This document shows, piece by piece, positions 10,435 to 60,307 of a stretch of DNA of 64,000 bases. The notes under the pieces were generated by a model, which worked only from the letters and a program-made list of their open reading frames with translations, ran no database searches and was not told the DNA's origin. Position 1 is the first letter of the stretch, and each line of letters begins with the position of its first letter. The translations under genes were made by a program, and so were the position numbers. This DNA is from Candidatus Omnitrophota bacterium (GTDB lineage Bacteria; Hinthialibacterota; Hinthialibacteria; Hinthialibacterales; Hinthialibacteraceae), in NCBI GenBank assembly GCA_003598175.1, contig QZKN01000141.1:1-64000 (forward strand), given 5' to 3'.

Positions 10435-10478
10435 AATCGTATGTTCCGGTATTCTTTTTGCCGAAGAATTATAATACC

Positions 10479-10536: not shown

Positions 10537-10557
10537 CACAAAAATCGAGTTCATACC

Positions 10558-11487: not shown

Positions 11488-12299
11488 AACTGCCACGACA
11501 CCCCTACATCATGGTCGGCGGAGCCATTTCGTTGCTGCTCATCGTAACGGCAACATTCGCGCCGTTTATTTGTGGTTATCAACCGGACGAAATCGATTTG
11601 CGGGCGCGTTATCAACCGCCGTCATGGCAGCATTGGTTCGGCACCGATGAAGTGGGGCGCGACGTGTTCAGCCGTGTGGTGTATGGCGCGCGCATTTCAT
11701 TGGGCATCGGCCTCACCACCCGCACGGCGGGATTGTTGATCGGCTTGATTATCGGGTGCCTGTCCGGCTATTACGGCGGGAAAACGGATGTTTTGTTGCA
11801 GCGAATTGTGGATGTTACGTTGGCGTTTCCATTTTTACTGCTCGTCATTTCGATTGCGGTCATTTTTACGGAAGGGTTGCTTTCGGTTTTTATCGCCTTG
11901 AGCGCGGTGATGTGGGCAGGCATGGCGCGCATCATGCGTTCGCAAGTGATGGCGATGAAAGAACGGGAATACGTGACCGCGATCAAAGCGTTCGGCGCGT
12001 CGGACTGGCGCGTGATCGTGTATCACATCCTGCCCAACGCTTACGTTCCCGCGCTGATTTGGTGGACGATGGGTCTGGCGCAGGCCATCATGGCGGAGGC
12101 GGGATTGTCGTTTCTCGGTTTGGGCGCACAACCACCCACGCCCAGCTGGGGCAGCATGATTCATTACGGTTCGCAGGCGATTCGAGTTGCGCCGTGGGTT
12201 TCGCTTTTTCCCGGCGCGGCGCTGGCGGTAACGGTTTTGGGATTCAATTTGTTGGGAGAGGGCTTGCGTGACGTGCTTGATCCGCATTATAAACATTGA
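11484..12299 (+). CDS. ABC transporter permease, DppC/OppC family
   Basis: Second membrane subunit of the same importer, 271 aa. It contains the family sequence HWFGTDEVGRDVFSRVVYGARISL after the first helix, and the EAA loop EYVTAIKAFGASDWRVIVYHILPNA. It ends in the conserved GLRDVLDP. Translationally coupled to the DppB-like gene by an ATGA overlap. No DppD/DppF-type ATPase gene follows (the next gene is on the other strand), so the importer must borrow ATPases encoded elsewhere or be incomplete here. Confidence 0.94.
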   Translation: MKLPRHPYIMVGGAISLLLIVTATFAPFICGYQPDEIDLRARYQPPSWQHWFGTDEVGRDVFSRVVYGARISLGIGLTTRTAGLLIGLIIGCLSGYYGGKTDVLLQRIVDVTLAFPFLLLVISIAVIFTEGLLSVFIALSAVMWAGMARIMRSQVMAMKEREYVTAIKAFGASDWRVIVYHILPNAYVPALIWWTMGLAQAIMAEAGLSFLGLGAQPPTPSWGSMIHYGSQAIRVAPWVSLFPGAALAVTVLGFNLLGEGLRDVLDPHYKH

Positions 12300-16041: not shown

Positions 16042-16064
16042 GAACGCTGAGTATCGCCGCATTT

Positions 16065-42550: not shown

Positions 42551-45500
42551 TTATGGCGCCAATGAAACAAGAGAATGTCGTTTTTTCCCTTCACAAAAAT
42601 AAATCGCCCTGAATCGTTCCATTTGTTTGATTCTGTCGATGATGAGGCGTTGTTGATCGGAGCTGGCTACGTTTCTGGCCAACGCCTTGGCGTCTGTTTC
42701 CGTCAATCGCAGAACGAGATAATTGGCGATAGTGGAGAATAACGATTCATGAAAGTCTTTCGCTTCCTGCGAGGCGAGGATAAGAGAAATGCCGTATTTC
42801 CGGCATTCTTTTGCCATGGTCGGGATCAACTTCAATTGCGCGGCGCGGTGCGCTTCATCGAAAATGACCGCGTGCGTCAAGCGTTCCTTGGTGCCTCTCC
42901 GGAACATATCTTTATAAAGACCATAGAAAACGAGCGCGGCAAATGCTCTTTGAAGATTATCATTTTGAGTGGTGTGAATCCGGATGATAATAGGCTCATC
43001 GCTTTCCCACAGGCTTTCTCTCATTTCGCCCAGGTCAAAGAATCCATAGTCGGCCAGTTCATTGAGACGGGCCAGGAGTGTGCGCAATCCATGATCCGAT
43101 TTCGGTTGATCTTTTAGTATCTCCAAAAAACGCTTGAATTCCGGTTCGATCATTTCATTGGATTCCGGATCGGGATTATCCCAGCCACGTTCAATAAAAC
43201 TGTCCTTAATGGCTTGCCGAATTCGTTCTCCCTGAATGTCGCCTAATTCCGGAAAAATGGCGGTGAAGATATCACGCAATTTGCCGGCAACATCCAGGTA
43301 AGCATATTTAGAAGTCCTATCATAAACCTGAAGAGGATTGAATCCCAATCCTTGAAAATCGATAAAGCGAACTGAGCCGACAAGATTTTTCAGTTTTTCA
43401 TCAATGTCCTGATGATAGGAAAACACAATCGGACGCATGCCCTGATGCAGCATCTGCCTGCAAATATTAATAAGGCAGGTTGTTTTCCCCATCCCCGGAA
43501 GCCCTACAATCATAAGGTGAGGATTTCCCTTCACGGTAAGAGGCCAACTCACGTCCGCCCCGGAGAGAGTGTCTTTACCAAAATGAATGACCGGCGGCTC
43601 AATGAAGCTATCCTGATTTTGTCGCTCGTTGTTTTCCTGCGCGGGACCTGATTCATCATTCATGGAATGAGTTTCTGTCCCAACAATCATGTCGGCGTTC
43701 GATTTTACCGGATCGCCCTCTCCCCTAATCGGAGGTTGTTGATCATGTTGGGGAACGGATTGTTGTTCAATACACGAATCCGGCAACAAAGCCGGCCCAA
43801 AAATGAATATACGCGTCGACCAGCCATCCGGCGAAACATCCAGTGGTCTTGCTCCCGTATATTCGGGACAAAAAATCCAGCCTCGATCCATTTGGCCTTT
43901 CGGCGAATCCGAAAAAGAATAATTACTTCCTTGCACTATCATGCGATCTATCTCACAGACAAGATCTTTATAATCGGCTTCGGAAAGAAAATGCCGATGC
44001 GCCTTATCCGCGTAAAAGCGCAAAACTCGAGCCAGTTTTGCGCGTCGAAGGGCGCGAAACGAAGAATTCAGATTTTCATCGGCGTATCCGGATTCCCAAC
44101 GTTTTCGAAACGATTCAACTTGATCGCGGATTTGTTCGAGTAGTTCCGGTGTTCTTGCCGTTCTCAAATGTCTGCGATATTTCACTTCGATAAATTGGAA
44201 CCACAATCCTTTGCGTGATCCCAGCGAGACATAAATTAGATCCGGACGAACCTCTGATTCTTTTTCCTCATTATTTGATTTTGAAACCTTCAAAGGAAAT
44301 AATAGATCACGAACATCATCGATGGGAACAAAGAAACCATTACTGAGCGACACCCATTCTTCTGAATTTTCACTAGCTTTCACGCAATGGGCATGACTTA
44401 ACGCCAATGCAATCAACTCGGATGTTGGCGCTTTTTGTCCGGTCAAGCGAATGGCAAGTCTTCCGCTCAACGCTTTCAGATGCTCCAACAAAAACTCCGC
44501 ATTGCGACGGCTGCGGCTCAATCCCATTTGATCCAGCGCTCGATCAAATAAATTTCGGATTTCTTCCTGGTTACTTGTCGAAGTGATCAACTGCAGGCAG
44601 CCCAAATCTTCCCGTTCCGGAACGCAATCAATGACATACGCGTCGTAGATTTCCTGGTTGTCACGCGGGGAATCGAAATATTCGATGCCGGCGTTTCGAT
44701 CCAAGGTGATCACCCAATCGCAAAGTTTATGCAATGACTTTAAATTCTGGGCTTTTTCCGGACTGATTTCCGTCTGGAGCACCGGCATATCTGTATCTTT
44801 GTCGCTTAAATTTCGAACCGTGCACTTATTGATTGATTGTTGAATTTTTATCAATCTTTCCGTATGGGAACGTTCCGAAGGATGCTTCTCCCCTTCACTA
44901 TTCGACGGAAGAAAACTTCGCCATAACGGCGAGGGTTGATTTGAATAGTGTCTTTCAAAAAAGGACATCAAACCAAAAGCGTAGTACGGTCGGTAATGTT
45001 CGAATTGGCTTTCGCTCACAGCCGCGGTTTTAGATTCGAATGTATCAAAAGCAATAGCGAGATGCGCGGCGGTTTCGGGCTCCGCTTTTTCCTTCCGCGC
45101 CCAGCGTAGTTTCGGCAGATTGACGCCGCCGGGCAGACTCAGCGACTCGAGCATCCAGTAATCTTCCGCTGCCAATGAACCCGCGCCGCTACGGTGTTTT
45201 TCACGGATGTCCGAGATAAAGCGTCCGGAAATACTTCGTTGTTCCGGCGATGGATAGAGTTCGAGAACAAAAGCAGGGACGTGTTTTGGGGTATTCTCTC
45301 CGTCCTCTTCCTCCACCTCCGGCTGAAATTCTTTTTGAACGATTCCGAGAGCGCGCGCGACCGTCGATCCGTCTCCCGGTCTGAGGGAATGGATGAGCAA
45401 AAGTCGGGAGACGTCATGGCATTCCAGATATTTGAGGATTTCCTGACTGAGGACTGCCGCGCTTTGTCGGCCCACGGTGGGCGCGGTGTCCGCTGACTCG

Positions 45501-47584
45501 GATTCCCCCAATGCCCTGGCCAACATCGCCACCGCCGCTTTCGGCTCCTTATCGCTGTCTTTGACCATCCCCACTGCGTGAAATCCCAGTGAATCCGCAA
45601 AAACGAATGTTTCCCCGCGATGAATCCCCGGTAAAAATGCCGGAAACATCGAACCATCCAAGGCCGCAAATTCTTCCCGAATTTCTTTTGGTTGGGAATC
45701 CTGCTCATATCGCGTATGCAGAACCAGATTATCATAGGCGGCATGCCAGGATACCCGCAACGGATGGCTGGGCAAGACGATGAGTCCCACCGTCCGGCCT
45801 GACAGCGTTTGCACTTCCACCGTGTTTACTAATGCAAAAGCGGGATCCCCCTCACTGAGTAACGTCGTCCAGGATAATACATATTCTTTTACGATATTTT
45901 CAACCGCTTTTGATTTTTCAGCATAAATCTGTCCCACGCCGCCGCCGCTTTTGTGAAAGTGCTCGGCCATCCGTCTGCTTGCATTTACAGCTCTTTCCCA
46001 AATGGATTCCCAGATCTTTTCAGTAAAGGATTCCGGCGTTGAAAGGGGAAGAAATTCCGGTACACCGGTTCGGTCGCCATTGGCTCGAACCATAATCCGC
46101 CACCGGCCGATCTCCCCGTTTTTTTCGGCCCATTGCGATTCCACATCGCGAATTAACGGAGGACGAAAGACGCGATAACTTTTTTTCTCTCGTGTTCGAA
46201 GAATCAAGAAATCTTTAGCCTCACTCGTATGAGAACCGTTTGTATTGATACAATTATTTACTGATTCCCGATCTGACAGTTCGATCAACCCCTCGCTGAA
46301 GGTTCGTACTTTTTTGCCAATTCCTCTTTTTTCGTTCCCGAGAGGATTACCGAAACGAATGATGAATTCTTCGCTCTCTTGCGGCTCGATATCGTTATTT
46401 CCCATTGCGGAAACCATAACTTTCGCCGGGACGAGAGCATCTTCACTTAAAAACGAAAAATCGTCATTCGTGAAGCGACATTTTTCTTCCTTTTTCCCCG
46501 AATGCCAAACAGATTGCGACACCAGTTCTTCATCCATACCCGAATAAATAGTTACCCGATATTCACCGCTATTCTTTACCAGATTCTCCGGTTTGGTTTT
46601 CCAACGGACTTCTAATTTGGAATAATTCCCGGTCTGTTCGGCGTTCGGTTCCAGGATAAATAATGGGGGGTCGTCCTCATCTTCTGCTCTCGTCAATCCG
46701 GACCATTGTAAAATTGTTCCTGTCTTACTTCTCCAAGGAACCAGATTAATTTCTTGTATCGGCTGGGTACCTTGTTCCACTTGTAGCGCGTTAATCCACA
46801 AATCTGGTTTGTCCGCAAGTTCGGTCAAAGCTTGAGGAATGCTTTTTGTCCCCGCTTCATGTATAAATTTTTCCAGCATAAAGCGTTGAGTATCGGTCGG
46901 ATTCGCCAGCCGGAGAGAATCGATTCGTTTGGCAATGGTTAAATTGGAAGCAGTATTTCCTAACAGACGTTGGACGAATAAATCAGATAAATTTAGCAAG
47001 GTAGCAGAATTTTCATCCTTTTTTTTATGCAAAGGCCAAAGTCCTACAAGATATACAAAGTCGCCCGGATATTTTTTTTCTGCCGCAATACGGACATAAA
47101 AATCAAATTCAACCCAGGGAGAAACGCTGACGCGACGTCCTCGTTGTTGGGCTTTTTTCACGGCTTTTTCCGCGAATTCCCGATAGGGACGTGACAGTTT
47201 CACGGTGATTTCACGAGCCGCCAACCGATTGGCTTCTTTGAAGAGTGTGTTTTCAAACACCTCTTGCGCCGCGCTGTAAATCCCATCCATTCCCGCGCCG
47301 GCTCGGTCCGTATCGACCACTAATAACGTCGGATCTGTTTTGGATTCGCGCATTTCCACGGCTTCATCGGCGGTGATGACACGTTTGCATTGATCATGAT
47401 GATCGGAGACAAAATAGACTTGCCAATTGTTAAGAACAAAACCGGAAGAATTCGCAAGCGATTCCACAACATCGCGGGTTAAACAACGAACAAAAGCGAT
47501 GGTGCCTTTTGTAGGTTCGCCCAAAATATGCTGTAACGCTTCACTCAAAAGTTGGGTGTGCAATTCATGCAATATCATGATCAT
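42551..47584 (-). CDS. Large HerA/FtsK-like ATPase with embedded PD-(D/E)XK nuclease site, 1677 aa (module gene C)
   Basis: Third gene of the island module. The C-terminal ~340 residues are a HerA/VirB4/FtsK-type motor: Walker A GLPGMGKTT at 1361-1369, Walker B with AVIFDEAHR at 1572-1580, then ISLILASQEAKDF and the terminal FYCEGKKRHSLVSLAP typical of DUF87-like proteins. At 1114-1135 the sequence RPD-x17-EVK (Pro1114-Asp1115, Glu1133, Lys1135; FIEVKYRR) matches a PD-(D/E)XK nuclease core. The first ~1000 residues are not recognisable. Overall plan resembles DptH of Dnd restriction and the ATP-binding protein of the MADS defence system (from memory of the families). It likely translocates on DNA and may cut it. 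The start overlaps gene B by 20 bases. Confidence 0.8.
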   Translation of the reverse strand: MIMILHELHTQLLSEALQHILGEPTKGTIAFVRCLTRDVVESLANSSGFVLNNWQVYFVSDHHDQCKRVITADEAVEMRESKTDPTLLVVDTDRAGAGMDGIYSAAQEVFENTLFKEANRLAAREITVKLSRPYREFAEKAVKKAQQRGRRVSVSPWVEFDFYVRIAAEKKYPGDFVYLVGLWPLHKKKDENSATLLNLSDLFVQRLLGNTASNLTIAKRIDSLRLANPTDTQRFMLEKFIHEAGTKSIPQALTELADKPDLWINALQVEQGTQPIQEINLVPWRSKTGTILQWSGLTRAEDEDDPPLFILEPNAEQTGNYSKLEVRWKTKPENLVKNSGEYRVTIYSGMDEELVSQSVWHSGKKEEKCRFTNDDFSFLSEDALVPAKVMVSAMGNNDIEPQESEEFIIRFGNPLGNEKRGIGKKVRTFSEGLIELSDRESVNNCINTNGSHTSEAKDFLILRTREKKSYRVFRPPLIRDVESQWAEKNGEIGRWRIMVRANGDRTGVPEFLPLSTPESFTEKIWESIWERAVNASRRMAEHFHKSGGGVGQIYAEKSKAVENIVKEYVLSWTTLLSEGDPAFALVNTVEVQTLSGRTVGLIVLPSHPLRVSWHAAYDNLVLHTRYEQDSQPKEIREEFAALDGSMFPAFLPGIHRGETFVFADSLGFHAVGMVKDSDKEPKAAVAMLARALGESESADTAPTVGRQSAAVLSQEILKYLECHDVSRLLLIHSLRPGDGSTVARALGIVQKEFQPEVEEEDGENTPKHVPAFVLELYPSPEQRSISGRFISDIREKHRSGAGSLAAEDYWMLESLSLPGGVNLPKLRWARKEKAEPETAAHLAIAFDTFESKTAAVSESQFEHYRPYYAFGLMSFFERHYSNQPSPLWRSFLPSNSEGEKHPSERSHTERLIKIQQSINKCTVRNLSDKDTDMPVLQTEISPEKAQNLKSLHKLCDWVITLDRNAGIEYFDSPRDNQEIYDAYVIDCVPEREDLGCLQLITSTSNQEEIRNLFDRALDQMGLSRSRRNAEFLLEHLKALSGRLAIRLTGQKAPTSELIALALSHAHCVKASENSEEWVSLSNGFFVPIDDVRDLLFPLKVSKSNNEEKESEVRPDLIYVSLGSRKGLWFQFIEVKYRRHLRTARTPELLEQIRDQVESFRKRWESGYADENLNSSFRALRRAKLARVLRFYADKAHRHFLSEADYKDLVCEIDRMIVQGSNYSFSDSPKGQMDRGWIFCPEYTGARPLDVSPDGWSTRIFIFGPALLPDSCIEQQSVPQHDQQPPIRGEGDPVKSNADMIVGTETHSMNDESGPAQENNERQNQDSFIEPPVIHFGKDTLSGADVSWPLTVKGNPHLMIVGLPGMGKTTCLINICRQMLHQGMRPIVFSYHQDIDEKLKNLVGSVRFIDFQGLGFNPLQVYDRTSKYAYLDVAGKLRDIFTAIFPELGDIQGERIRQAIKDSFIERGWDNPDPESNEMIEPEFKRFLEILKDQPKSDHGLRTLLARLNELADYGFFDLGEMRESLWESDEPIIIRIHTTQNDNLQRAFAALVFYGLYKDMFRRGTKERLTHAVIFDEAHRAAQLKLIPTMAKECRKYGISLILASQEAKDFHESLFSTIANYLVLRLTETDAKALARNVASSDQQRLIIDRIKQMERFRAIYFCEGKKRHSLVSLAP

Positions 47585-49391
47585 TATTCTCCGCGCGTTT
47601 GAATCTCGGTTGTAAACGTTTCATCGATTCTGCGTCATTGACGCCCGCCAGCAATCCCAAATCACGCATCCGCCGTTCCAGAATCGCGCGATTGGTTTGC
47701 AGCAATTCATTTGAAATGGTCATGCCGGGAGGCGCTTCATCGATACAAAATCCATAGCGTTCCCGAATTTTGTGAATAAATTCCTTTAATGATAAGGAGC
47801 GGAATTGATGACTGTTTCCGCTGGGCAAAAGATGAACATGGACAAGATAATCGAGTACCGAATCGGTAAAAACCAGAGAACGCGCATCCCGGGTTTTTCT
47901 TCCCGTGTGCGCCTGTCTTTGTGTTGTTTTTCTTATTACGGCGATACCGTTGGGTTGGTTAATGGATAGGGTTGAATTAAGGCATTTTAAAAGATTGGTT
48001 TGCGTGTTTTCTCTACCTTGTAATACCGTGAGAGCCTCCGCTAACCGCAAGACATGATTGGGATAAGTGGAATAATTTCCAAGAATCTCTGTTATTTCCG
48101 GATATTCCTCTTTCAATTTTTCGAATAGTTCTGCCGATTTTCTATCAAAATCGTAAAAAATTGCCTTAGACTCTTCCCGTCTTTCATGAAACAAGTCCCC
48201 TAACAGATTCAACCGATCCGTCGCATAAGGCTTGGTTGAAATCGGTAAATTACTGAGGTTACGATCATAGATTGCCACATAATCCAGCAGGCGGAGTGAC
48301 ATAAGAATCACGGGTAGCTTTTCAAATCGCCTACAAAAGTCATCAAATGATTCTTCTGTAAGTGAACGAAGTTTTTTATCCATACCATGAGAACAATCCA
48401 CAAATAAAGGAACGGAATGTTGTTCGCGTAATATTGGTATTGCTCCGGTTTTTATCCATTCAAATAAAATCTCACACATGCTGGTTAGAATCGTTGTGAG
48501 TCCGATTGCAACACAGGATTCAAGCATGTCAACGAGAGTTTGACGGGGGATTTGATCGGCATAACTTCGGATAAAGCGGCGAATATCTTCAGAAAAATGT
48601 CGCGCCGCCTTTTCGGCGATCGGACGTTGATTTGATATATTTTCCCCTTCTCTATCTCGCAACTTATCCGGCGCTTCTCCAATCTGTTGAGCGAGGCGAA
48701 TCATTAAAAGTTGATCAATTCCAACATGATCGTCTTCTGCAAAACGATCTGATGTTCTACTAGCCAATTCGCCTCGGATTGTGATTCCTTGATGAAAGGC
48801 GTGCATTAATACATTGTTTTCAAACCCTCTCCCCACGGCAAACCAGGTTCGATCATCATCTTTGTTTAACTGAACATGCTCACCCTTTTGATCGGCCAAC
48901 ATCGCAACGATCATTTCCGGAACATAGCGAAGATTGACTACTTTATCAGGAAGATCAATCCAGCTGGCCATATAATGAACCGGCGCAACGCGCTGGATTT
49001 GTTCGGTTCTGCCTGAGTTTCTATTTTTATTTTCCAAACAAAAACACAAGAGTAAATCCCCCAGAATGGCTTGCTCGATTTCACCATTAAATCCCCGGAG
49101 CGAGGGAATGGAAGATAAATGTGCGGCTATCTTCTCAATGGTCGCATTGCGGCGACGTTCGTTTAGTGTTCCTTCCGTTCCTCCAAATACTTGTATGAAT
49201 TTTCCCTTTCCACGGCGTTTGCCAAAGCGAAACATATAAAAAACAGCCGGAAGAATGGCGGAGAGATCAAAGCCTTGAAACGAAATCGGCATTGCTTTTT
49301 CAAAATTTCCAGTCCATATTTTTCGGGTCATCTGACGGCCAAGCACATCTTCAACCATGGTTCTTCCCGTATTTGTTCGTTGGGGGCTCAT
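47565..49391 (-). CDS. Helical partner protein of the kinase/HerA module, 608 aa (gene B)
   Basis: No enzyme motif recognised. Predicted mostly helical, soluble. The C-terminus (LKEFIHKIRERYGFCIDEA, ERRMRDLGLLAGVNDAESM) looks like a winged-helix-type ending often seen in defence-system partner subunits. By position and size it corresponds to the middle subunit of kinase/partner/ATPase trios (DptG- or MAD7-like by analogy, not proven). ATG 49391 overlaps the stop of gene A as ATGA, with GGGAGG 9 bases upstream; an earlier ATG at 49397 is in frame. Strict translational coupling suggests a stoichiometric complex. Confidence 0.7.
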   Translation of the reverse strand: MSPQRTNTGRTMVEDVLGRQMTRKIWTGNFEKAMPISFQGFDLSAILPAVFYMFRFGKRRGKGKFIQVFGGTEGTLNERRRNATIEKIAAHLSSIPSLRGFNGEIEQAILGDLLLCFCLENKNRNSGRTEQIQRVAPVHYMASWIDLPDKVVNLRYVPEMIVAMLADQKGEHVQLNKDDDRTWFAVGRGFENNVLMHAFHQGITIRGELASRTSDRFAEDDHVGIDQLLMIRLAQQIGEAPDKLRDREGENISNQRPIAEKAARHFSEDIRRFIRSYADQIPRQTLVDMLESCVAIGLTTILTSMCEILFEWIKTGAIPILREQHSVPLFVDCSHGMDKKLRSLTEESFDDFCRRFEKLPVILMSLRLLDYVAIYDRNLSNLPISTKPYATDRLNLLGDLFHERREESKAIFYDFDRKSAELFEKLKEEYPEITEILGNYSTYPNHVLRLAEALTVLQGRENTQTNLLKCLNSTLSINQPNGIAVIRKTTQRQAHTGRKTRDARSLVFTDSVLDYLVHVHLLPSGNSHQFRSLSLKEFIHKIRERYGFCIDEAPPGMTISNELLQTNRAILERRMRDLGLLAGVNDAESMKRLQPRFKRAENNDHDIA

Positions 49392-52300
49392 GAGCATTCA
49401 CCTCCCATAACTTGGTTCAAGACGAGTTTCTGAATTGGATTTCCTTCGTCCTGTTCTATCTGGGTTGATATTTTATAGATGGATTCATCCTGCATCGGAT
49501 TCCAGGCCAGCAGTTCATATTCGTCTTCTCGGATCAGTCTGCGAATAAAGATCGATAAATGCGCGAATGTGTCTTCCGTCGATACGTCGCCCAGCTGATA
49601 TCCTTCGTTGAGTTCAAGCAGAAGATGAAAGAGTTCCGCGCCTAAACGCAATCGCTCTTCCCGGCCGTCTTGAAATCGATAAATCAAAAACGCCTGCCGG
49701 TGCAGGCGGTCCCCGCCTTTCAGTTCTTTCGGCAGATCGGGTTCCAGACGAAACGAATCACGCGGTTTTTCCACCCAAAACGCGGTTTCCGTGGGAGTGC
49801 GGGGCGTGATTCGCAGCGGCACATTCAACCGGTCAAGGGCTTGCGGGGGAAGGTCTTCGAGCCGGGAAATGCCTTTGCAGAGATTGGTTATAATTTCTTT
49901 CCTTTTTCCGCTGTCCATATGCTCATTGTTCAAAGGAAGATTGCGAAATAGAAAAAGATGCTTTCCCCGAGCCAGACCGAAAGCCTTCGCATCCCGGTCC
50001 CATTCCAAAATCCGTTCCTCGGTCCATTCAAAATAGGCCCGGCGGCGTGCGGAATCGATTTGCCGGCCATTCGTTTTCTCCGGATCGGTCACAAATTCCG
50101 CATAAAGCCGGCGATCAATATGCGGATGCGCTTCCAATGCGGGATCCAGGCGCACAAGTTCACGCAATACTTCTCCTTGCCGATTCGGAGAGGCGGGATC
50201 AAACGCACGATCCCAATACGGAACGGTTTTTATGGATTCGGCGTCGTGATAATCGGAACAGAAATGAACACCGAAAAGAATGTAGATCAATGACGAGCGA
50301 AGTTCCCGCATCGTGATATGCACTTCACCACGAAGATGAACCGCCTGTAATGCTTCAAATAATCGCTCCCGCGCCCGACGCCGTAGCGCGTCCGCCGCTT
50401 TTTCCGGTAATTCCTCCGGACCGAAAAGTTTCATGGCGCGAAAAACTTCGCATCGGTTTTTGGCGCTGCAAGTCAGGCAGGATTTCCAAATTGCCGCCGC
50501 GTTTTTTTCTCCGTACAGATGTTCGATCAAGGATTCCAGAAAACGGGCGTCAATGGTCCGTTTATCGGCGGATACGCTGCCGACCAAAGAGCGTTGATTG
50601 AGATTAATAAATCGAATGTAGGAATCGGAAGAACATTCTTTTTCTTGTAAGAGACCATCCAATTCATCCGTGAGAAGAGATTCTTCACTTTTTTCGATCC
50701 ATTCCAACAGACGGCCGTCGTTGATCGCGAGCAAATGAATGAGATCCTCATCCGGTTTTCCCTTTTTAAACGGTTCCAGAAACTCATCCAGAATTTCATC
50801 GGCCGAGCGACCGTTCCATGAGGCCGATCCATCCAGGTTCATGCGAACGGTAAGCCCATCCGGCAAATGACCTTCGACAATTCGTTGCGAAGACTCATGT
50901 TTTCCCATACCAAGCCGTTCCGCAAGGTGTTGCAATAGGGCGGTTTTCCCGTCCCCCGCATTCCCGCAAAGAATCACAAGCCGAATGCGTCTTGCCATGA
51001 TGTCCTCAAAGAGAGCAATTTCCAAATTCGTTTTCACGTAGGTTTGTTTGGCAAAATCGGTATCCAAACCCCGTGTTTCCCGGTTTCCCCATTTGGATCC
51101 CGGATACGAGCGAAGCAAAGAAAGCAACCATTCCACACGTTCCTCGCGCAGTTCAATGGAAACACTGTCCTCTTGCTTCACTTCCGCTTCGAGCTCGGTC
51201 CGCGTTCCCGCATCGGAAACAGAAAGCCTATCCAACGCTTCACGGACGGTTGAAAATCGTTGCGCCGGATCCGAATTGGTCGCGCGGTTCAGAAATGCAG
51301 TAAGAATGGGATACTCTTCTTGATTGATCCCTTCCCAATTCAGACCTTTCTCCTTGGATGGGACACCAGGATAAGAAAATGGTTCTTTTTCAAAAACCAC
51401 ATGAAAGAAACTGGCAGACAACGCATAGATGTCGTCAGAGGGAGAGGCGGGCTCCTGCGCTTGAGACCAAGGAGAACAATACAGAACCGTGCCCGGCGCG
51501 CTTCTTTTCTCTCCGATTTTATTTATAAAATCGTAATCGGTGAGGACGATATCATGACCGGCGATAATCATATTTCGTGGACTGATATCGCCATGAATCA
51601 AACCATTTTGATGAAGTAATCCCAGCGCCTCGCACATGGATCGGATCCAGCGAATCGCTAATGCTTCGGGGGTATGCTCTTGAAATTCTTCTGCTAATAG
51701 GGGAAATACACCAATATACTCATTCAGAGGGGTTCCTTCGATCCAGGTCATGAGAGCGACAAAGTTATTCTCACTCCATTCATCTGCTACTTCAAAAATT
51801 GTAGAAAGACCGGCATGACGCCCAAGATGAGGGCGGACTAAATTGTACGATCGGAGAATCCTGTCGCCATTATCTTTGGTAAATAGCACTTTGGCTACAT
51901 ATGTCCCTAAATCTTCTTTGGTTGAACGATCCATCTGGACCACTTTGAACGTTCTTCCCACGCCGCCCGTCCCCAAGTGATTCACAATCCGATAGGTGTG
52001 ATTCCCGAAATGGATTTCCTGATCTTCCGTCCAAAAGCGTGCGGGAGGAGCTTTGGGTAGAGGAACAGATTCACCGAGCATCAGCGATAATTCATTTTCC
52101 AAACCTTGTAACTCACAACGCTTCTCAGGGGCTTCTTCCAATCCCTTTTTTAGACACAGTAAGGCTTTCCTGCAATTTTCTTCCTCTTGTCCTTCAAATA
52201 AGATACAAAGAGATGCGCACAAGGAATAAATATCGGAATATGGAGTCGCCATGCCGAGCCCCTGTGAACGGATTTCCGGCGCGACAGTTTGTTCCCATTT

Positions 52301-53380
52301 TTTCGGAAGAACAAACGTGGATGCCACACTGACGTCTGAAGGAATTTTTGTCCATTTAAACGCGGTAAAAATCGGGGTGTTATCATGTTTGACATGGATG
52401 GTCAAAGGAGACAAATTCCGATGAATCATTAGGACGCCTTGAATATCGCGTTGATGCATCTGCCGAAGGGCCCGGATTGATTCCCGCGCGAAGAATACAC
52501 GATGCAAGGAACTCCATGAATTATCGTTCATTCGCTCTTGAAGAGAGGGGGCGGCAGGATCGGTTATGGTGAAAAAAAACATTTCTCCCGCATATCCCGG
52601 CGCTTCTTGGAAAGAATCCAAAATTCGGGGCGCCCAAGAATATTGTTGGAGATGATGAAGCGCCTCGAACTCTCGGCGCGCCTTTTCTTCAACGTTTTTG
52701 CTGTCGCTTGCCGAAAGATCATATAAATGCATTACAACCCGGTCTTGTCTGACAGAATGAATTCCTTTAAAAATGCGATGAAACCTTTCCTCACGAGCGG
52801 TTTGGAGTTCCAGATTGATATAACTGCCAAGTCGTCTTAGAGAGCCATCAATTGCGACGGCGCTTCGAGGTTCAAGAATGCTGCCGAGAAAACGGATGTC
52901 TGGATCCTCAAGTATTTTGGGTGAGTTGCCATTAATCACAGATTTCCAGTCATTCAATGTATAAATTTGAACGCCGCGTATTGGTTCGTTCTTGATTTGT
53001 TTTAATTTGGAGGAATCCTGTGTGAGAAAGATTACTCCATCCACATGAGGAAGATTTTCAAACCTTTTTCTGAGCGTTGTCCCAATTTTTCGCGCTTTAT
53101 TTGTGAGTTTATCAGCTTCCTGTTCCACGAGGTTGGGATTGGCATTAAACCATTGCGCGCTCCAATGTTTCACTTCGATTACTCGAACGCCGGGAGGCCC
53201 AATCACGACCATATCGATCTCATCCGATTGGAGCTGATGATTGACCGAAAATGCCAGGTTGGTAAGAATGATCCATTCGCCCTCGCCATCCAATGAGTGC
53301 ATTTTGTTTTTTAAATGTTCGAGCGCTTTTAATTCACTTTCATTTGCAACAGAACCACACGCGAAATGGGTGACATTCAT
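49388..53380 (-). CDS. NERD / pseudokinase / Ser-Thr kinase / P-loop NTPase fusion, 1330 aa (gene A)
   Basis: First gene of the module. Residue numbers include two codons before the preferred ATG 53380 (GGGAAGG 9 bases upstream). Domain order: NERD nuclease-related domain ~15-125 with DEID...EVK (Asp58, Glu71, Lys73); kinase-like domain ~195-400 lacking catalytic residues (IHRNLSP for HRD, TAFKW for DFG), so a pseudokinase; a second kinase ~459-720 with G-loop LGTGGVG, Lys499, HGD at 598-600, Asn605 and TDYD at 616-619, apparently active; a P-loop NTPase from ~795 (GNAGDGKT 808-815) with a Cys motif CLTCSAKNRC; a helical C-terminus. PglW (BREX type 2) and the MADS kinase share NERD plus kinase. 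It probably senses infection and phosphorylates partners. Confidence 0.82.
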   Translation of the reverse strand: MNVTHFACGSVANESELKALEHLKNKMHSLDGEGEWIILTNLAFSVNHQLQSDEIDMVVIGPPGVRVIEVKHWSAQWFNANPNLVEQEADKLTNKARKIGTTLRKRFENLPHVDGVIFLTQDSSKLKQIKNEPIRGVQIYTLNDWKSVINGNSPKILEDPDIRFLGSILEPRSAVAIDGSLRRLGSYINLELQTAREERFHRIFKGIHSVRQDRVVMHLYDLSASDSKNVEEKARREFEALHHLQQYSWAPRILDSFQEAPGYAGEMFFFTITDPAAPSLQERMNDNSWSSLHRVFFARESIRALRQMHQRDIQGVLMIHRNLSPLTIHVKHDNTPIFTAFKWTKIPSDVSVASTFVLPKKWEQTVAPEIRSQGLGMATPYSDIYSLCASLCILFEGQEEENCRKALLCLKKGLEEAPEKRCELQGLENELSLMLGESVPLPKAPPARFWTEDQEIHFGNHTYRIVNHLGTGGVGRTFKVVQMDRSTKEDLGTYVAKVLFTKDNGDRILRSYNLVRPHLGRHAGLSTIFEVADEWSENNFVALMTWIEGTPLNEYIGVFPLLAEEFQEHTPEALAIRWIRSMCEALGLLHQNGLIHGDISPRNMIIAGHDIVLTDYDFINKIGEKRSAPGTVLYCSPWSQAQEPASPSDDIYALSASFFHVVFEKEPFSYPGVPSKEKGLNWEGINQEEYPILTAFLNRATNSDPAQRFSTVREALDRLSVSDAGTRTELEAEVKQEDSVSIELREERVEWLLSLLRSYPGSKWGNRETRGLDTDFAKQTYVKTNLEIALFEDIMARRIRLVILCGNAGDGKTALLQHLAERLGMGKHESSQRIVEGHLPDGLTVRMNLDGSASWNGRSADEILDEFLEPFKKGKPDEDLIHLLAINDGRLLEWIEKSEESLLTDELDGLLQEKECSSDSYIRFINLNQRSLVGSVSADKRTIDARFLESLIEHLYGEKNAAAIWKSCLTCSAKNRCEVFRAMKLFGPEELPEKAADALRRRARERLFEALQAVHLRGEVHITMRELRSSLIYILFGVHFCSDYHDAESIKTVPYWDRAFDPASPNRQGEVLRELVRLDPALEAHPHIDRRLYAEFVTDPEKTNGRQIDSARRRAYFEWTEERILEWDRDAKAFGLARGKHLFLFRNLPLNNEHMDSGKRKEIITNLCKGISRLEDLPPQALDRLNVPLRITPRTPTETAFWVEKPRDSFRLEPDLPKELKGGDRLHRQAFLIYRFQDGREERLRLGAELFHLLLELNEGYQLGDVSTEDTFAHLSIFIRRLIREDEYELLAWNPMQDESIYKISTQIEQDEGNPIQKLVLNQVMGGECS

Positions 53381-53493
53381 GATCAAATACCTTCCCTTGT
53401 GTAATCCCTCTATACCGTAGCGAAAAAATAATCATTTCAAACCGGATTTCCAATAACTTTCAAAACATGATACTCGAATTCGTGAACGCACAA

Positions 53494-53607
53494 ATTAAAA
53501 CAGTATTTCTTGTAAAATAAAGAGTAATCAATTGATTTACTTCTCCGACGGAACCACCGTCAAATGACAAAGCGAATCCGCATACCACACGCCTGCGCCG
53601 GCGATTC
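53494..53607. repeat. Right copy of 114-bp direct repeat flanking the kinase/HerA module
   Basis: Parental copy: it covers the 3' end and ~43 bases downstream of the HIRAN/ARPP-1 gene, which is intact here. The distance to the left copy is 11.2 kb, and the three module genes and nothing else intact lie between them. Confidence 0.92.
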
Positions 53608-55027
53608 GATCGCTGTGCACGGCCAGTTCATACCCCAACCCGATAGAGTGTTCACACAGTTGAATATTCTCACGAATCTGATCGAGAAACTCCTCCACGC
53701 ATTTCTGCGATGCCTTCTTTGGAGGATTCGGATCGTTGACCGCTTCCAGGAAATAGGAATCGGCAATCCGTTCCCAGCATTCGTGAAAGATTTCCGACGA
53801 ATCGAAATAATCCAGGCCAACCACGTGATCGCCGCTGCAAACCAGCACTCCCGCCGTCTCTGGCGGCAGTACAATTGTTTTTCGATATTCGTCTATCCGT
53901 TCTTCGCAGAATTGATAACCGTCGGTAATCGAATCCGTGGCGGATGAGGCTTTCATGGCGTGCAGTTGAGCGGAGACTTCCTCCCACACTTCTCCCTGAT
54001 CGCTTCTGGCTTCTCCTGTGTGCAGCCGGCATTCCTGAACCGAGCGCAATTTCTTGCCTCGGAGTTTGGGATGCGCGTAAAAAGCGGATTGAAATTTTCG
54101 TGAGGCATACCGCCACCGTCCCCGTTCCACGCAGCTGACCGGAATGCGGGTGGATTGATGCGCGGCAACGATGATCGTGATGTTGATTACTCGGTTCTGT
54201 TTGGCGCCGATGAGGATTTCTCCTTCCGGCGCAAGAACCGGTTTGTCGCCGCGATTGTGCAGCAACAATTCATGCACCTGACCTTCCTCGGACGCTTCTT
54301 CGATTTCCACCACTCCCATTTCCAACGCCTTTTTTAGCAATACATAATTCCCTGTTGCACCGTTCAGTTTGCCGAACGGAAACAGCGTCAGATTCCGGTA
54401 ATGAATCCCTTCCCCCACTTTCAACCGGCGCAATTGTTCCCGGATTTTTTCGATCACGTTTTCACTATGCTGCCTCCGGATTTCTTCCGCTTTGAACGGG
54501 AATAGCGACAACAACAATTGCGTTTCCGGCAGGACATCCCGGCTGATCAACCGATGCAACCGTTCTTGTAATCCATGAATAACGGCAGGATCGGAAAAGC
54601 CCGGGAGTTTCAAAAACGATTCGAGAATGATCTCCCGGATGGCCTCAATGGCCGTGCCGGGCGATGGATTCGTTTCCAGGATCGAAAATCCCTTTTGACA
54701 CAGATACAACTTGATGATCAATGGAGAGCCATGATGCCGAACCCGCGGATGAGGGGAGAACGTGTTGGGAACCGCTCCCTCGATAAGCACTTTTCCCTGA
54801 TCGATCAGCGGCGCCAGCCAGCGCGTGATTTCTCTCGGGACAAATCCCACATCCTTGAAATCCGGATTCCTGACTCGGATTGCATTGGCGTCATGCTGAT
54901 TGTCCGGATCGCGCTCGAATGAGACTTCTTCTCCCGCCTGTACATTGTCCTCGACGTATTGCATCCCCACGATTCGGGTCTGAAACTCGCCCAGGTATAG
55001 GTTTTGGTGTTGTGTCGCAGATTTCAT
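53537..55027 (-). CDS. HIRAN domain + ARPP-1-type domain protein, ~496 aa
   Basis: The N-terminal HIRAN domain (residues ~10-110: QTRIVGMQYVEDNVQAGEEV, FERDPDNQHDANAIRVR, VGFVPREITRWLAPLID) has the D-x-x-N-x-x-D-x-x-A-I pattern of domains that bind DNA ends or damaged DNA. A helical middle follows. The C-terminal half has the ARPP-1 (DUF6569)-like core: HNRGDKPVLAPEGEILIGAKQNR with STRIPVSCVERGRWRY, ending GAGVWYADSLCHLTVV. Molecular function unknown. ATG 55027 has GAAAGGA 9 bases upstream. It lies between a small gene and the kinase module on the same strand, so it may be part of the same response. Confidence 0.75.
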   Translation of the reverse strand: MKSATQHQNLYLGEFQTRIVGMQYVEDNVQAGEEVSFERDPDNQHDANAIRVRNPDFKDVGFVPREITRWLAPLIDQGKVLIEGAVPNTFSPHPRVRHHGSPLIIKLYLCQKGFSILETNPSPGTAIEAIREIILESFLKLPGFSDPAVIHGLQERLHRLISRDVLPETQLLLSLFPFKAEEIRRQHSENVIEKIREQLRRLKVGEGIHYRNLTLFPFGKLNGATGNYVLLKKALEMGVVEIEEASEEGQVHELLLHNRGDKPVLAPEGEILIGAKQNRVINITIIVAAHQSTRIPVSCVERGRWRYASRKFQSAFYAHPKLRGKKLRSVQECRLHTGEARSDQGEVWEEVSAQLHAMKASSATDSITDGYQFCEERIDEYRKTIVLPPETAGVLVCSGDHVVGLDYFDSSEIFHECWERIADSYFLEAVNDPNPPKKASQKCVEEFLDQIRENIQLCEHSIGLGYELAVHSDRIAGAGVWYADSLCHLTVVPSEK

Positions 55028-55097
55028 CGGTTTTTTCCTTTCTTGCAGAAGCAATAACGAATAGTGAATGCGAAGCATTGCTGTTTTCTGTTGCTGG

Positions 55098-55715: not shown

Positions 55716-57263
55716 TCAGTCGGAAAGCCACTTTTTCAGCGTATTTTTTGAAACCTTCAACGCGTCCGCCGTACGCGTGATATTCCCGTCAAACAGCTTC
55801 AACACATGCCGCATATAGGATTTTCGAATCTCCTCTTCCGGAAGCGCTTCGTTGATCGACTCCGGCCGAAATATCTTATAATCGCGGAGGATTTCTTTCG
55901 GCAGCCGGTGATGAGGATCGCCGGAGGAATGTTCGATCTCTTCGTTCAACACCTCTCGCACCGGCATTTTCATATAGGCCGCGCGCTTGAGGATATTGAT
56001 GAATTCTCGAATATTTCCCGGCCAGGAATGGTTGTTGATGGCTTTCCAATCCGCCGGCGATAAATCCAACGGATGGCCTTTTTTCTTTAAATCATACATC
56101 ACGCTCCGGGCAATGGTTTTCATGTCGTCCCGTCGTTCCATCAAGGACGGCGCCCGCAACGTCAACACGTTCAGCCGATGGTACAAATCCATACGAAAAC
56201 GTCCGTCGCGAATCATGGACGGCACATCCTGATTGGTGGCGGCGATGATGCGTACATGAACCGTATGCGATTTCATCGTCCCCAGCGGCGTGATGGTTCC
56301 TTCTTCCAACACCCGCAAGAGTTGGGTTTGGACGGGTAAAGGCAATTCCGCCACTTCATCCAAAAACAAGGTTCCGCCATCCGCCGTTTCGAACGCGCCC
56401 GCTCGGCTTTCCGTGGCGCCCGTATACGCACCGGCGATGTGTCCGAACAACCGGTCATGAGCCAAATCCGCATTCGTGCTGAGAATGGCGCAATTCACGG
56501 ATACAAACAGACCTTCCCGCTTACCGACCTCGTGCAGCAATCGCGCCGCGATTTCTTTTCCCGATCCGGTCGGCCCCAAAACCAGAACCGGCTCTTCCAA
56601 CGGCCCCAGGCGTTTGATCAACGAACGCAGCTGTTTCATCGCCTTGCTGTTGCCGAGAGGGACGCCTGATTTCCCATACTTGCGATAGGATTCGACTTCT
56701 TCCCGATCCGCCTCCGTGAAGGGAACCAAACCGGCCACTTTTCGGATCACATGAACGTAACTGTTTCGATCTTCATATTTGAAATAACGATGCGCGCCGG
56801 CTTCGATCAGATCATGCCAGATTTGCTCTTCGTCGGATCGTTTCATCGATGAATCAACATATTGTTCGGCGAGTATACGCAGCAAATCTGTGGTTGGATT
56901 GGTTGGGAGTTTCAGATGGTTGAAGATCAACTCCGTATTGCTTCGATATTCCTGAAAAATGGGCTTGCAGACTTTCCGTAACGAATCGGCGTACTCGTCC
57001 AGATACGTTCTGCCGCAATACCAGAACACGGAACGCTTTTTCCGTTTCAGTTCCCCCAACGCACGAATCACGCTCTTCAGATTTTCAAAAATACCCACTC
57101 CGCAAATGTGAATGATTTCCGGAACCTTTTCATATCCGATGATTTCTTCCAACGCCATATCCATGCGTCTGGCGCTGGTGATGACAATCTGCAGTTTCGG
57201 ATTTTTCTGCAACACCATTGCGGCCGCACATGCGCCGTCTGTTCCATGAGAGGTTATGATCAT
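55716..57263 (-). CDS. Sigma-54-dependent transcriptional activator with DHH-like N-terminal domain
   Basis: 515 aa. The central AAA+ domain has Walker A GPTGSGKE, the sigma-54 contact loop GAYTGA, Walker B GGTLFLDEVAEL and an Arg-finger region (RFRMDLYHRLNV). The C-terminal Fis-type helix-turn-helix is NITRTADALKVSKNTLKKWL. The ~200-residue N-terminal sensor begins MIITSHGTDGACAAAMVL, resembling the first motif of DHH phosphoesterases, followed by IIHICGVGIFENL and VFWYCGRTYLDEY where those enzymes have catalytic Asp and DHH; the catalytic residues are missing. It may bind a nucleotide or oligonucleotide ligand (compare the CARF sensor of RtcR). Likely regulator of the downstream island genes. 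Confidence 0.87.
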   Translation of the reverse strand: MIITSHGTDGACAAAMVLQKNPKLQIVITSARRMDMALEEIIGYEKVPEIIHICGVGIFENLKSVIRALGELKRKKRSVFWYCGRTYLDEYADSLRKVCKPIFQEYRSNTELIFNHLKLPTNPTTDLLRILAEQYVDSSMKRSDEEQIWHDLIEAGAHRYFKYEDRNSYVHVIRKVAGLVPFTEADREEVESYRKYGKSGVPLGNSKAMKQLRSLIKRLGPLEEPVLVLGPTGSGKEIAARLLHEVGKREGLFVSVNCAILSTNADLAHDRLFGHIAGAYTGATESRAGAFETADGGTLFLDEVAELPLPVQTQLLRVLEEGTITPLGTMKSHTVHVRIIAATNQDVPSMIRDGRFRMDLYHRLNVLTLRAPSLMERRDDMKTIARSVMYDLKKKGHPLDLSPADWKAINNHSWPGNIREFINILKRAAYMKMPVREVLNEEIEHSSGDPHHRLPKEILRDYKIFRPESINEALPEEEIRKSYMRHVLKLFDGNITRTADALKVSKNTLKKWLSD

Positions 57264-57712: not shown

Positions 57713-60307
57713 ATGAATTTAGTCCGCTATTGGATTCGTTTATTGTTCATCGCGTGTTTATTCGCCGATTTCACCGCTGGATTTCCCGATCATGCGGCAT
57801 CTGCTTTTCCACCAAAACTGAAAGACGACGCGTATCCTCGTCATTATCGACCCGACCGTAGCGTCGATTTTGAGCATATGCGGCTGGAAATCAAAGTTTT
57901 CATGAGTGAAAAACGGATCGAAGGTACGATTCATTACCGTTTCCGACCGTTACACGACAACGTCCGGCAAATCCGCTTCGACGCCGAGGAAATGAAAATC
58001 CAAGCGGTACAATCGCCATCCGGGCGGGACGTCAAATGGAATCACGCGGACAATGCGCTGCATGTCACCTTCCCTGCTCCGCTTGCTTACGGTCAGGAAA
58101 CGGAAATCGCCATTCAATACGCCGCTTCCCCGGCGGAGGGGATGTATTTCACCGACTCGAAACACGTGTATCCGCAGAATCCGGATCAACTGTATACCCT
58201 GGTCGAGCCCTATTGGAGTTCGCGCTGGTATCCGTGTGTGGATTATCCCAACGACCGCATGGTGACCGAAATGATTGTCACCGCGCCGAAAGAATTCGAT
58301 ACATTATCCAATGGATTGCTGGTGAAATCCATTGAATCCGGCGAATGGCGCACGGATCATTGGAAACAAGAGATTCCGCACGTGGTTTATCTCGTCAGCC
58401 TGGTCGTCGGCAAATTCGATGTCGTGAAAGACGAGTGGCGGGGCGTTCCGGTGGAGTATTACGTGGAAAAAGGCCGCGGCGCGGATGCGCGGCCGAGCAT
58501 GGGCAAAACGCCGGAAATGATCGAATGCTTCAGCAATTATTATGGCTGTCCCTATCCTTACGAAAAATACGCGCAGGTCGCGGTTCGTTACTTCGGCGCG
58601 GGCGGGATGGAGCACACGACGGCGACGACCCTGCACGAATTCGCGGTGATCGACGAGGAAGCGCGGCTGGATCACGACGAGGATTGGCTGATCGCGCACG
58701 AATTGGCGCATCAATGGTTCGGCGACTACGTAACCTGCAAATCGTGGGGAGAATTGTGGCTGAACGAAGGCTTTGCGACCTACAGCGAATGCATCTGGGC
58801 GGAGCATGTCGGCGGTAGGGACCTTTATCTCGATCATTTGTGGGATGATATGAAGAGTTATATCGGCTCTTCCCGCCATTATACCCGCGCCATCGTCACC
58901 AATCAGTTCGACGATGCCGACGAAATGTTCGATTCGCATTCCTACCCGAAAGCGGGATGTGTGCTGCACATGCTGCGAGATCAACTCGGCGACGTATTGT
59001 TCCGTAAATGTCTGTCCAATTATTTATCCCGATTCGCGCCCGGCCTGGTCGACACGGATGATTTCATGGAAATCATCGAAGAAACCACCGGTCGCCCGAT
59101 GGATCGGTTTTTCGAGCAGTGGATTTACCGTCCCGGCCATCCTAAAATCCAAGTCACGCACGAATGGCTGCCGGAAAGCAAACGTGTCAAACTGACGGTG
59201 AAACAAACGCAAACCAGGGCCGAAGGCGAACCGCCGTTCGCGTTTCCGCTGGAAGTGGAAATCGATTCCGCCTCGGAATCCATCCGCCAGACCTTCGAGA
59301 TCACGAAATTGAACGAAACCCTTTTTCTTGCCGGCGAGGAAGCGCCCAAAAGCGTCGTGATCGATCCGTTCCTTCGCGTACTGATGGAAGTCGAGCACGA
59401 GAAGTCGGAAGACATGCTGCTGCACGACCTGCAATACGGTTCCTCGGTTATCGTGAAGATGAAAGCGATTCAGGCGCTGGCGCAAAAAACGTCGGGACGG
59501 GTGATCGATGCCTTGATCCATGCGTTGAATCACAACCATTTCTGGCGGATTCAGGAAGAAGCGGCGTATGCACTTAGCAAAATTCATTTCGGCAAGGCGC
59601 GCAAAGCGCTGTTGGATGCCTGCAATCACCCAAATCCAAAAATCCGACGCGCGGTAGTCTCTTCGCTGGGTAAATATTATAAAAACAATGAAGTGAACGA
59701 AGCGTTGAAACATGTATATAAAAACGATGACAGCATCCACGTCATTGCCGAGGCTGTTCGTTCACTCAGCCGCAATCGCGCGGAAGGTGTATATACCTTA
59801 CTCCGCGGCGGTTTGGAGCGGGAATCCTACCGTTACAGAATCCGGCTGGCGGCTCTCGACGCCTTGGTGGATTTGGATGAAGCGAAAGTGTATCCTGCTC
59901 TCGTGAAATTCGCGGATGATCCCTATCCCCGAAACGTTCGCACTTCTGCCATGCGCGGCATGGGAAAATTGGCTTATAAAACGAAACGCAATAACAAGGA
60001 AACACTCGATCTACTCCTGAAATATATGAATTCTCCCGCCGAATCGATCCGCGACGCCGCCATCGACGGATTGCGAGCCTTGCGCGATGAAAACGCGATC
60101 CCACCGCTGCAGCGAATCGCCGACGATGACCCGAATAAACACATTCGGGAACAGGCGCAGTCCGCAATCAATGCAATTCGGCAGGAACGGGGGAGTGAAT
60201 TATCCGCCGAGAATGCGAAAAAAGTGGAGGAATTGGAGAAAAAAATAGAAAAACTACATGATACGATGAAGGAATTAACTCAAAAAATCGATGACCTTTC
60301 TCAATAA
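57713..60307 (+). CDS. M1-family zinc aminopeptidase with C-terminal HEAT repeats
   Basis: 864 aa, with a signal peptide (LLFIACLFADFTAG), so probably periplasmic or secreted. Catalytic zinc motif HELAH at 329-333, with the third ligand Glu352 in WLNEGFATYSE. The exopeptidase motif G-x-M-E-N appears as GGMEHTTATT, with His in place of the usual Asn. After the M1 core (~1-560) come HEAT/PBS-type repeats (~570-830: VIDALIHALNHNHFWRIQEEA, ALLDACNHPNPKIRRAVVSSL and others). The last ~40 residues form a charged coiled coil. HEAT repeats probably mediate protein contacts. ATG 57713 has CTGGAGGATATTTC upstream. Confidence 0.9.
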   Translation: MNLVRYWIRLLFIACLFADFTAGFPDHAASAFPPKLKDDAYPRHYRPDRSVDFEHMRLEIKVFMSEKRIEGTIHYRFRPLHDNVRQIRFDAEEMKIQAVQSPSGRDVKWNHADNALHVTFPAPLAYGQETEIAIQYAASPAEGMYFTDSKHVYPQNPDQLYTLVEPYWSSRWYPCVDYPNDRMVTEMIVTAPKEFDTLSNGLLVKSIESGEWRTDHWKQEIPHVVYLVSLVVGKFDVVKDEWRGVPVEYYVEKGRGADARPSMGKTPEMIECFSNYYGCPYPYEKYAQVAVRYFGAGGMEHTTATTLHEFAVIDEEARLDHDEDWLIAHELAHQWFGDYVTCKSWGELWLNEGFATYSECIWAEHVGGRDLYLDHLWDDMKSYIGSSRHYTRAIVTNQFDDADEMFDSHSYPKAGCVLHMLRDQLGDVLFRKCLSNYLSRFAPGLVDTDDFMEIIEETTGRPMDRFFEQWIYRPGHPKIQVTHEWLPESKRVKLTVKQTQTRAEGEPPFAFPLEVEIDSASESIRQTFEITKLNETLFLAGEEAPKSVVIDPFLRVLMEVEHEKSEDMLLHDLQYGSSVIVKMKAIQALAQKTSGRVIDALIHALNHNHFWRIQEEAAYALSKIHFGKARKALLDACNHPNPKIRRAVVSSLGKYYKNNEVNEALKHVYKNDDSIHVIAEAVRSLSRNRAEGVYTLLRGGLERESYRYRIRLAALDALVDLDEAKVYPALVKFADDPYPRNVRTSAMRGMGKLAYKTKRNNKETLDLLLKYMNSPAESIRDAAIDGLRALRDENAIPPLQRIADDDPNKHIREQAQSAINAIRQERGSELSAENAKKVEELEKKIEKLHDTMKELTQKIDDLSQ

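Follow-up and report, generated by a model that had tools for sequence, protein, structure and literature searches.

A divergent, apparently stand-alone DndFGH-type gene trio with a kinase-fused DndF in a Candidatus Omnitrophota genome

In this article, I discuss a row of three genes, here called F, G and H, in a 64,000-nucleotide stretch of DNA (the window: bases 1-64000 of the 91,417-base contig QZKN01000141.1) from a Candidatus Omnitrophota bacterium, whose genome (GCA_003598175.1) counts 6.9 Mb in 192 contigs and is 91.8% complete. Open reading frame (ORF) calling places the three genes consecutively and overlapping on the minus strand, from 53386 down to 42551, and an earlier note, made from the letters alone, had taken them for a stand-alone trio of kinase, partner and HerA-type nuclease and for a candidate new defence system. 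The genes and their recognizable parts are the following.

49388 to 53386, minus strand: gene F, 1332 amino acids (aa), NERD domain, pseudokinase, Ser/Thr kinase and DndF/SspF-type P-loop nucleoside triphosphatase (NTPase) core
53090 to 53341, minus strand: NERD domain (F residues 16-99), Pfam PF08378, with E56/D58/E71/K73 intact
52187 to 52819, minus strand: putative pseudokinase region (F about 190-400, approximate limits), HRN replacing HRD at 322-324
51188 to 51994, minus strand: kinase domain (F about 465-733), matching PF00069 and PADLOC kinases, with K499/D600/N605/D617 intact
49412 to 51124, minus strand: DndF/SspF-like NTPase core (F about 755-1325, approximate limits), from the SspF model PDLC02793 and alignment
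47565 to 49397, minus strand: gene G, 610 aa, DndG/MAD7-like partner (MAD7 NF047733 152.7 bits, mad7 E 7e-13)
42551 to 47584, minus strand: gene H, 1677 aa, DndH/MAD8-like protein (DndH PDLC02684, DptH chain 7es4)
44165 to 44248, minus strand: PD-(D/E)XK motif region of H (1113-1140), motif D1115...E1133-x-K1135 intact
42569 to 43588, minus strand: HerA/FtsK ATPase domain of H (1333-1672), K1367/D1576/E1577/Q1606 intact

Gene F reaches 1332 aa from a TTG start, with an in-frame ATG at 53380, and G is 608 aa long when read from its next ATG; F and G overlap by 10 bases, or by the 4 originally given when the 608-aa start of G is used, and G and H overlap by the 20 originally given. Since homologues of F, G and H adjoin each other in the loci of relatives too, the trio is a genuine gene set and not a chance row of ORFs. 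The reading of F as a NERD-pseudokinase-kinase-NTPase protein is borne out by Pfam, where NERD scores 39.1 bits against a cut-off of 22.1 and the kinase 74 bits against 31.7 (best stretch F 465-672), the first kinase copy being labelled a pseudokinase because HRN stands where HRD is expected. PD-T4-6 is a stand-alone defence kinase, and the kinase region of F matches it in PADLOC together with MkoA, and also MAD6. The C-terminal NTPase core carries the Walker A motif GNAGDGKTA, ND at 889-890 and a Cys motif near 970-979, and its best kin is SspF (E 3.5e-14 over 783-1031), with a weaker match to DndF.

G matches MAD7, at 152.7 bits below the cut-off of 410; SspG is weak, and no DndG model stands among its matches. 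The C-terminus of H matches DndH (E 9.5e-26 over residues 1304-1669) and the solved DptH domain (E 5.4e-8), and with the motif residues of both domains intact the earlier description of a 1677-aa HerA-like ATPase with a PD-(D/E)XK core holds good. Structure prediction was less informative: the AlphaFold model of G is poor (mean pLDDT, the predicted local distance difference test score, 54) and gave no Foldseek match at E<=0.001, and that of H 1-1200 (mean pLDDT 57) returned glycosidase, superfamily 2 (SF2) helicase and many immunoglobulin-like chains at low confidence (TMq, the query-based TM-score, at most about 0.1).

The second main observation concerns what does not accompany the trio. Neither a motif scan for [DNS]PP[YFW] nor phmmer with 12 queries found a methyltransferase on the contig (5-methylcytosine enzymes were covered by the motif only), so that the absence noted earlier for the window extends to all 91,417 bases, and no methylase of a methylation-associated defence system (MADS) or of a bacteriophage exclusion (BREX) system turned up in the 27 kb of contig outside the window that might have hidden the rest of such a locus. 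A PglX-like gene was likewise not found by motif or phmmer, PglZ and BrxC not being sought with models of their own, and a linked MAD2 methyltransferase is absent from the same scans, which held no separate model for MAD5. DndC (TIGR03183) has no match at E<=0.001 anywhere in the window's genome at its 91.8% completeness.

How new is such a module? The class is known. DndFGH has been described as a counter-invader system that stands alone and is commonly decoupled from modification genes, and a DndF fused to NERD and to an inactive and an active kinase was in print in 2024 (Rakesh, Aravind and Krishnan, PMC10853773); a 2026 review likewise uses the term stand-alone immune system for this module (PMC12948488). 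The window trio shares with the published module the F-G-H row, the NERD, inactive kinase and active kinase on a P-loop core, and an H that likewise combines PD-(D/E)XK with a HerA/FtsK domain with a Gln sensor (PMC10853773). A new kind of system is therefore rejected, since both the architecture and the stand-alone state are already in that paper, and the window trio is a divergent member of the published NERD-kinase DndFGH subtype, its F scoring only 16.7 bits on the DptF equivalog TIGR03238 against a cut-off of 50.

The relatives named in the earlier note, PglW, MADS and DptFGH, proved to be the right ones by profile matches, and a search against defence families returned MADS, DndH, SspF and PglW; however, the scores stay below the curated MADS, DptF and PglW cut-offs. 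Kinship to MADS is close, in that profile comparison finds window G (E 1.9e-26) and H over its first 1330 residues (E 3.3e-55) homologous to the MADS-holding group described below, F matches the MAD6 model, the gene order is the same and the MADS-group locus L094 has the same trio layout, but the window proteins reach only 162.4 of 460, 152.7 of 410 and 26.1 of 175 bits on MAD6, MAD7 and MAD8, and these curated cut-offs rule out membership in MADS. With type 2 BREX the likeness is confined to the N-terminal half of F, which resembles PglW in NERD, pseudokinase and kinase (PDLC02512, E 6.6e-16), whereas the C-terminal half is a DndF core and not a PglW C-terminus (PglW architecture from PMC12839542, which also likens the NERD-kinase DndF to PglW); the PglW model gives 45.6 of 990 bits on F, and no PglX-like gene accompanies it on the contig. 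SspFGH is likewise a three-gene module with a motor-like protein, and SspF is kin to the F core as given above, with SspG (E 0.00087) and SspH (E 0.0064) weak; SspF, in the portion of PMC8092258 available, is described with a Walker A only and without kinase or NERD, while F has both, and no linked modification genes were found beside the window trio.

A tree of 42 F cores, rooted at its midpoint with no outgroup because the canonical DptF outgroup gave only one cut fragment in 185 genomes, falls into three groups: the window clade (19 cores, support 100/100), a clade from the Chloroflexota scan (14, 100/100) and the group that holds MADS (9, 100/99), the window trio thus being separated from MADS at 100/100. 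Linkage to methyltransferases was scanned over 52 stretches (1.06 Mb), with phmmer added because the motif scan alone missed the PglX-like gene in L081, and the flanks examined differ in length, several being short and the Chloroflexota loci offering little downstream sequence. Within these limits a linked methyltransferase accompanies 7 of the 9 MADS-group trios (of the other two, L092 is cut by the contig end and L088 has none in the examined flank), only 2 of the 19 in the window clade (directly downstream in L005, and about 5.7 kb off beyond insertion sequences in L004) and 1 of the 14 in the Chloroflexota clade (L081). A flank of about 2.5 kb or more on either side is available for eleven window-clade trios (L016 among them, whose H is truncated), and nine of these eleven show no methyltransferase; where none is linked, the nearest lie 16-19 kb away (G1173, G959; among the matches listed). 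The survey of neighbourhoods hence agrees with the earlier claim that the trio stands alone, in that homologous trios are not always accompanied by a Dnd operon or a methylase, most of those in two clades showing none in the flanks examined, just as the window's own contig has no methyltransferase and its genome no DndC.

Single loci show how far the groups reach. In L094, the one MADS-group locus scored on the MAD models, all of MAD2 to MAD8 lie above the curated cut-offs. L076, the one Chloroflexota-clade locus so scored, has an F of 503.1 bits against the MAD6 cut-off of 460 and a G of 476.8 against the MAD7 cut-off of 410, with no methyltransferase-, AAA-, MAD4-like or S-like gene within the 20 kb examined. 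In L081 (555-19211) a BREX-like locus, made up of BrxL, an unassigned gene of 774 aa and a PglX-like methyltransferase, is joined to the trio, which lies directly downstream, and in L088 (with L097) a MADS-group trio adjoins a 1287-aa gene of no Pfam family, with a DEAD/MZB helicase and a NERD-UvrD gene further upstream.

Residue conservation was surveyed in 42 F rows and 35 H rows, the partial H of L013 being left out. The P-loop (Walker A) Lys of F is kept in 42/42, the ND motif in 32/42 (NE in 9, NS in 1), the acidic residues and Lys of NERD in all 35 readable, and the HerA K/D/E/Q in all 33 readable, L016 having lost the domain and L010 ending before it. The two remaining activities are less constant. 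Of 38 trios with a readable kinase, 34 have its residues intact, and in the other four, L016, L017, L018 and L087, these are degenerate (L087: Lys only); the D-E-K of the H nuclease is intact in 30 of 34 and altered in L012 (E-E-R, conservative), L016, L017 and L087. Among trios readable for both, the H nuclease is altered in 3/3 with a degenerate kinase vs 1/28 with an intact one (Fisher p 0.0009; 3/3 vs 1/24, p 0.0014, when thinned to <80% identity), and the three trios in question sit on separate branches of the tree. I take this co-loss to suggest, though not to prove, an action of the kinase on the H nuclease arm, and because the decay of one goes with the decay of the other and phosphorylation is reported to inhibit DndFGH, the kinase may control the H nuclease. 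Wherever both nucleases are readable, the loci agree with the idea that no trio is left without an intact one, but with four altered H nucleases and three missing NERDs this proves little. Separately, three H genes end early: in L010 at about 8290, with an opposite-strand ORF next to it, in L077 at about 15330-18030, with ORFs between two H parts, and in L016 at about 17330, where the HerA part is gone.

Putting these observations together, I consider it probable that we have here an anti-invader module of the DndFGH type, which stands alone, needs no linked modification and has the nuclease arm of its H regulated by the kinase. What I infer are the defence function, from the kinship to DndFGH and MADS, and likewise the DNA target, the formation of a complex and each regulatory step. 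H, with its HerA/FtsK motor and PD-(D/E)XK nuclease, would capture and translocate invading DNA and nick or degrade it, G would be its DNA-binding partner, F a nucleotide-binding sensor, and the NERD domain of F a putative second DNA-cutting domain, while the kinase would be a regulator and not an effector, probably phosphorylating the complex and setting the state of the H nuclease arm, and such control could make linked DNA-modification genes dispensable. For DndFGH, DNA nickase and translocase activities have been reported (PMC11662687), and a phage kinase inhibits its nicking by phosphorylation, the kinase domain alone being insufficient in vivo (PMC12345140); SspFGH, when unrestrained, injures cells that have no phosphorothioation, and its authors liken it to DndFGH (PMC8092258), and N-terminal domains like NERD are viewed as co-effectors or backups (PMC10853773). 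The fused kinase, the co-loss and this literature on SspFGH and DndFGH make phosphorylation control of the H nuclease a reasonable mechanism, and whether the kinase would then be brake or trigger, the phage-kinase precedent favours a brake.

Several points weigh against this reading. Because unrestrained SspFGH harms unmarked cells, a trio that stands alone would need some other means of self-protection, and DndB, DndC and DndD elsewhere in two window-clade genomes (those of L015 and L016) could supply a mark in trans. As for the co-loss, its test was made post hoc and without correction for the tree, it draws on three lineages, and L016 may be a dying copy; without this truncated H the figures become 2/2 vs 1/28 (p 0.007). 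In trios L059-L061 (about 2700-11700) the genes run G-H-F, and F, at 578-617 aa, lacks both NERD and kinase; these trios keep an intact H nuclease and have no DndC, and so speak against the kinase as a general requirement, and MADS-group trios keep the kinase even though seven of nine have an adjoining methyltransferase. The poor AlphaFold models leave the published domain lists, a triple winged helix for DndG and, for DndH, an N-terminal SF2-like domain, beta-sandwiches, a TRD and a dead methyltransferase (PMC10853773), without confirmation at the level of the fold, and the literature searches met no experiment on any member of the window clade.

A bolder version of the scheme I regard as rather unlikely. 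In it, restriction of the DndFGH type could dispense with DNA modification because the fused kinase, by phosphorylation, would restrain the nuclease of DndH until an infection sets in, with NERD as the constantly kept second nuclease. The M and S genes of MADS would be an optional accessory to a core that regulates itself, and the stand-alone trios would form one family with the effector module of MADS. The link between the MADS effector and DndFGH was not met in the portions of the literature searched, the original MADS paper lying outside their scope, and it is not claimed here to be unpublished.

The alternative that survives best, although I still regard it as unlikely, is a restriction module that relies on modification in trans, an unlinked methyltransferase or phosphorothioation cluster protecting self DNA in the way assumed for the linked MAD2/MAD5 of MADS. 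The window's genome holds 6 PF02384, 3 PF07669 and 9 PF01555 matches, of which all six, all three and six of the nine (those among the matches listed) sit on other contigs, and the products of these genes could act in trans; N6-methyltransferases (PF02384) are present somewhere in 30/30 trio genomes tested, M and S-like genes adjoin seven of the nine MADS-group loci, two methyltransferases lie directly downstream of the trio in R. anhuiense, and the L081 trio adjoins BrxL and a PglX-like gene. PF02384 is, however, also present in 10/14 control genomes, which means that its presence says little, and no methyltransferase appears in the flanks examined, several of them short, of 17/19 window-clade and 13/14 Chloroflexota-clade trios. 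Phosphorothioation fares similarly, with DndC above the cut-off in only 4/31 genomes of the two stand-alone clades (2/11 and 2/20) and none in the window's. In the two genomes that carry trios L015 and L016, more than 0.8 Mb separates DndC from the trio, and the two clusters (L095 and L096) contain DndB, DndC and DndD, with DndE also in L096 (PADLOC). No F, G or H was found in these two 20-kb stretches by profiles of the 42 trios, which could miss canonical DndFGH, and the matches shown by PADLOC for nine of their ORFs include no DndF, G or H; each cluster has, in addition, a gene of 546-554 aa that matches DndB weakly.

It is improbable, next, that the trio is a barrier to plasmids or conjugative elements rather than to phages, with the HerA/FtsK motor intercepting DNA in segregation or transfer. 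Such a model has been put forward for DndFGH (PMC10853773), and two window-clade trios reside on Rhizobium plasmids whose own typing is conjugative; SspFGH, however, was shown to restrict phages (PMC8092258), and the tested neighbours of the window trio are mostly housekeeping-like, which is neutral. Least probable of all is an abortive infection in which the kinase would be the effector on host targets and G and H would sense invading DNA, for although the region matches the PADLOC defence kinases named above, as well as MAD6, and its catalytic residues are intact in 34/38 readable relatives, a kinase as main effector is weakened by relatives in which it is degenerate (L016, L017, L018, L087) or absent (L059-L061) while the NTPase core remains.

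Returning to the trio as such, its distribution is rare and patchy. With the F core as query, ten loci (53-64% identity) turned up among named genome contigs, the labels of their records being Caldilineaceae, Nitrospirae, Binatia, Pirellulales, Planctomycetaceae, Latescibacterota, Gammaproteobacteria, Bryobacterales, Chthonomonadales and, in one case, simply 'bacterium', and the F-G-H order is common to relatives from records of several phyla. An F-core profile finds 1/392 genomes at E<=1e-20 in the phylum of L012's genome (that genome itself), and at E<=1e-10 5/396 in the phylum of L016, 20/380 in that of L009 and 5/378 in that of L015, while a single-sequence search finds 1/14 in the window's own phylum; every phylum count takes in the genome at its centre. 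Plasmids hold relatives in 6 of 72,556 records, two of these being Rhizobium plasmids with the full architecture. The F-core identity across phyla, 45-66%, would fit horizontal transfer. Carriage by phages or viruses was rejected, since 50,697 phage records contain no match to H 1-1300 or to the F core, and a search of viral contigs with two query alignments, which seeds only exact short peptide patterns, yielded no relative.

What this analysis adds to the published subtype is a set of 42 related trios in three clades, two of them mostly without a linked methyltransferase in the sequence examined and the third holding the MADS core, together with the co-loss of kinase and H nuclease. Since SspFGH, and by its authors' comparison DndFGH, harm unmarked cells, the trios without linked marks raise the question of how they spare their host, and the clades with and without methyltransferase genes, along with the natural losses of kinase, NERD and DndH nuclease, offer a ready comparison for the role of the kinase and for the effector nuclease. 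Tying the MADS effector genes to DndFGH may also simplify the classification of such systems.

The surroundings of the trio complete the picture. Sigma-54 promoter matches number 19 in the window vs 26 expected, with none at 53387-53536, so that a sigma-54 promoter for the trio was rejected, and scans for sigma-70 promoters and terminators gave no more than chance level. Pfam on 15 other genes of the contig returned mostly housekeeping-like functions (ilvD, LptF/LptG, a sigma-70 factor, Lnt, a TonB receptor, an M1 peptidase, Gfo/Idh), alongside TPR, response-regulator and HIRAN-ARPP-1 genes, and PADLOC on eight contig genes, three of which also belong to the Pfam set, gave partial, weak matches only (one PD-T4-6, one DolB/PDC-M37B). 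Three neighbouring genes deserve a line each.

53537 to 55078, minus strand: HIRAN and ARPP-1 fusion, on the same strand and directly upstream of the trio, its HIRAN part matching the PADLOC candidate PDC-M03B
55716 to 57263, minus strand: sigma-54 activator, whose AAA+ and helix-turn-helix parts match RtcR/NorR-type regulators and whose N-terminal 200 residues match no listed Pfam family
57713 to 60307, plus strand: M1 aminopeptidase domain followed by HEAT repeats

As parts of the system, the upstream genes (the HIRAN-ARPP-1 fusion, a 136-aa ORF and the sigma-54 activator) were rejected, with no homologue at E<=1e-5 in the loci of 18 relatives.

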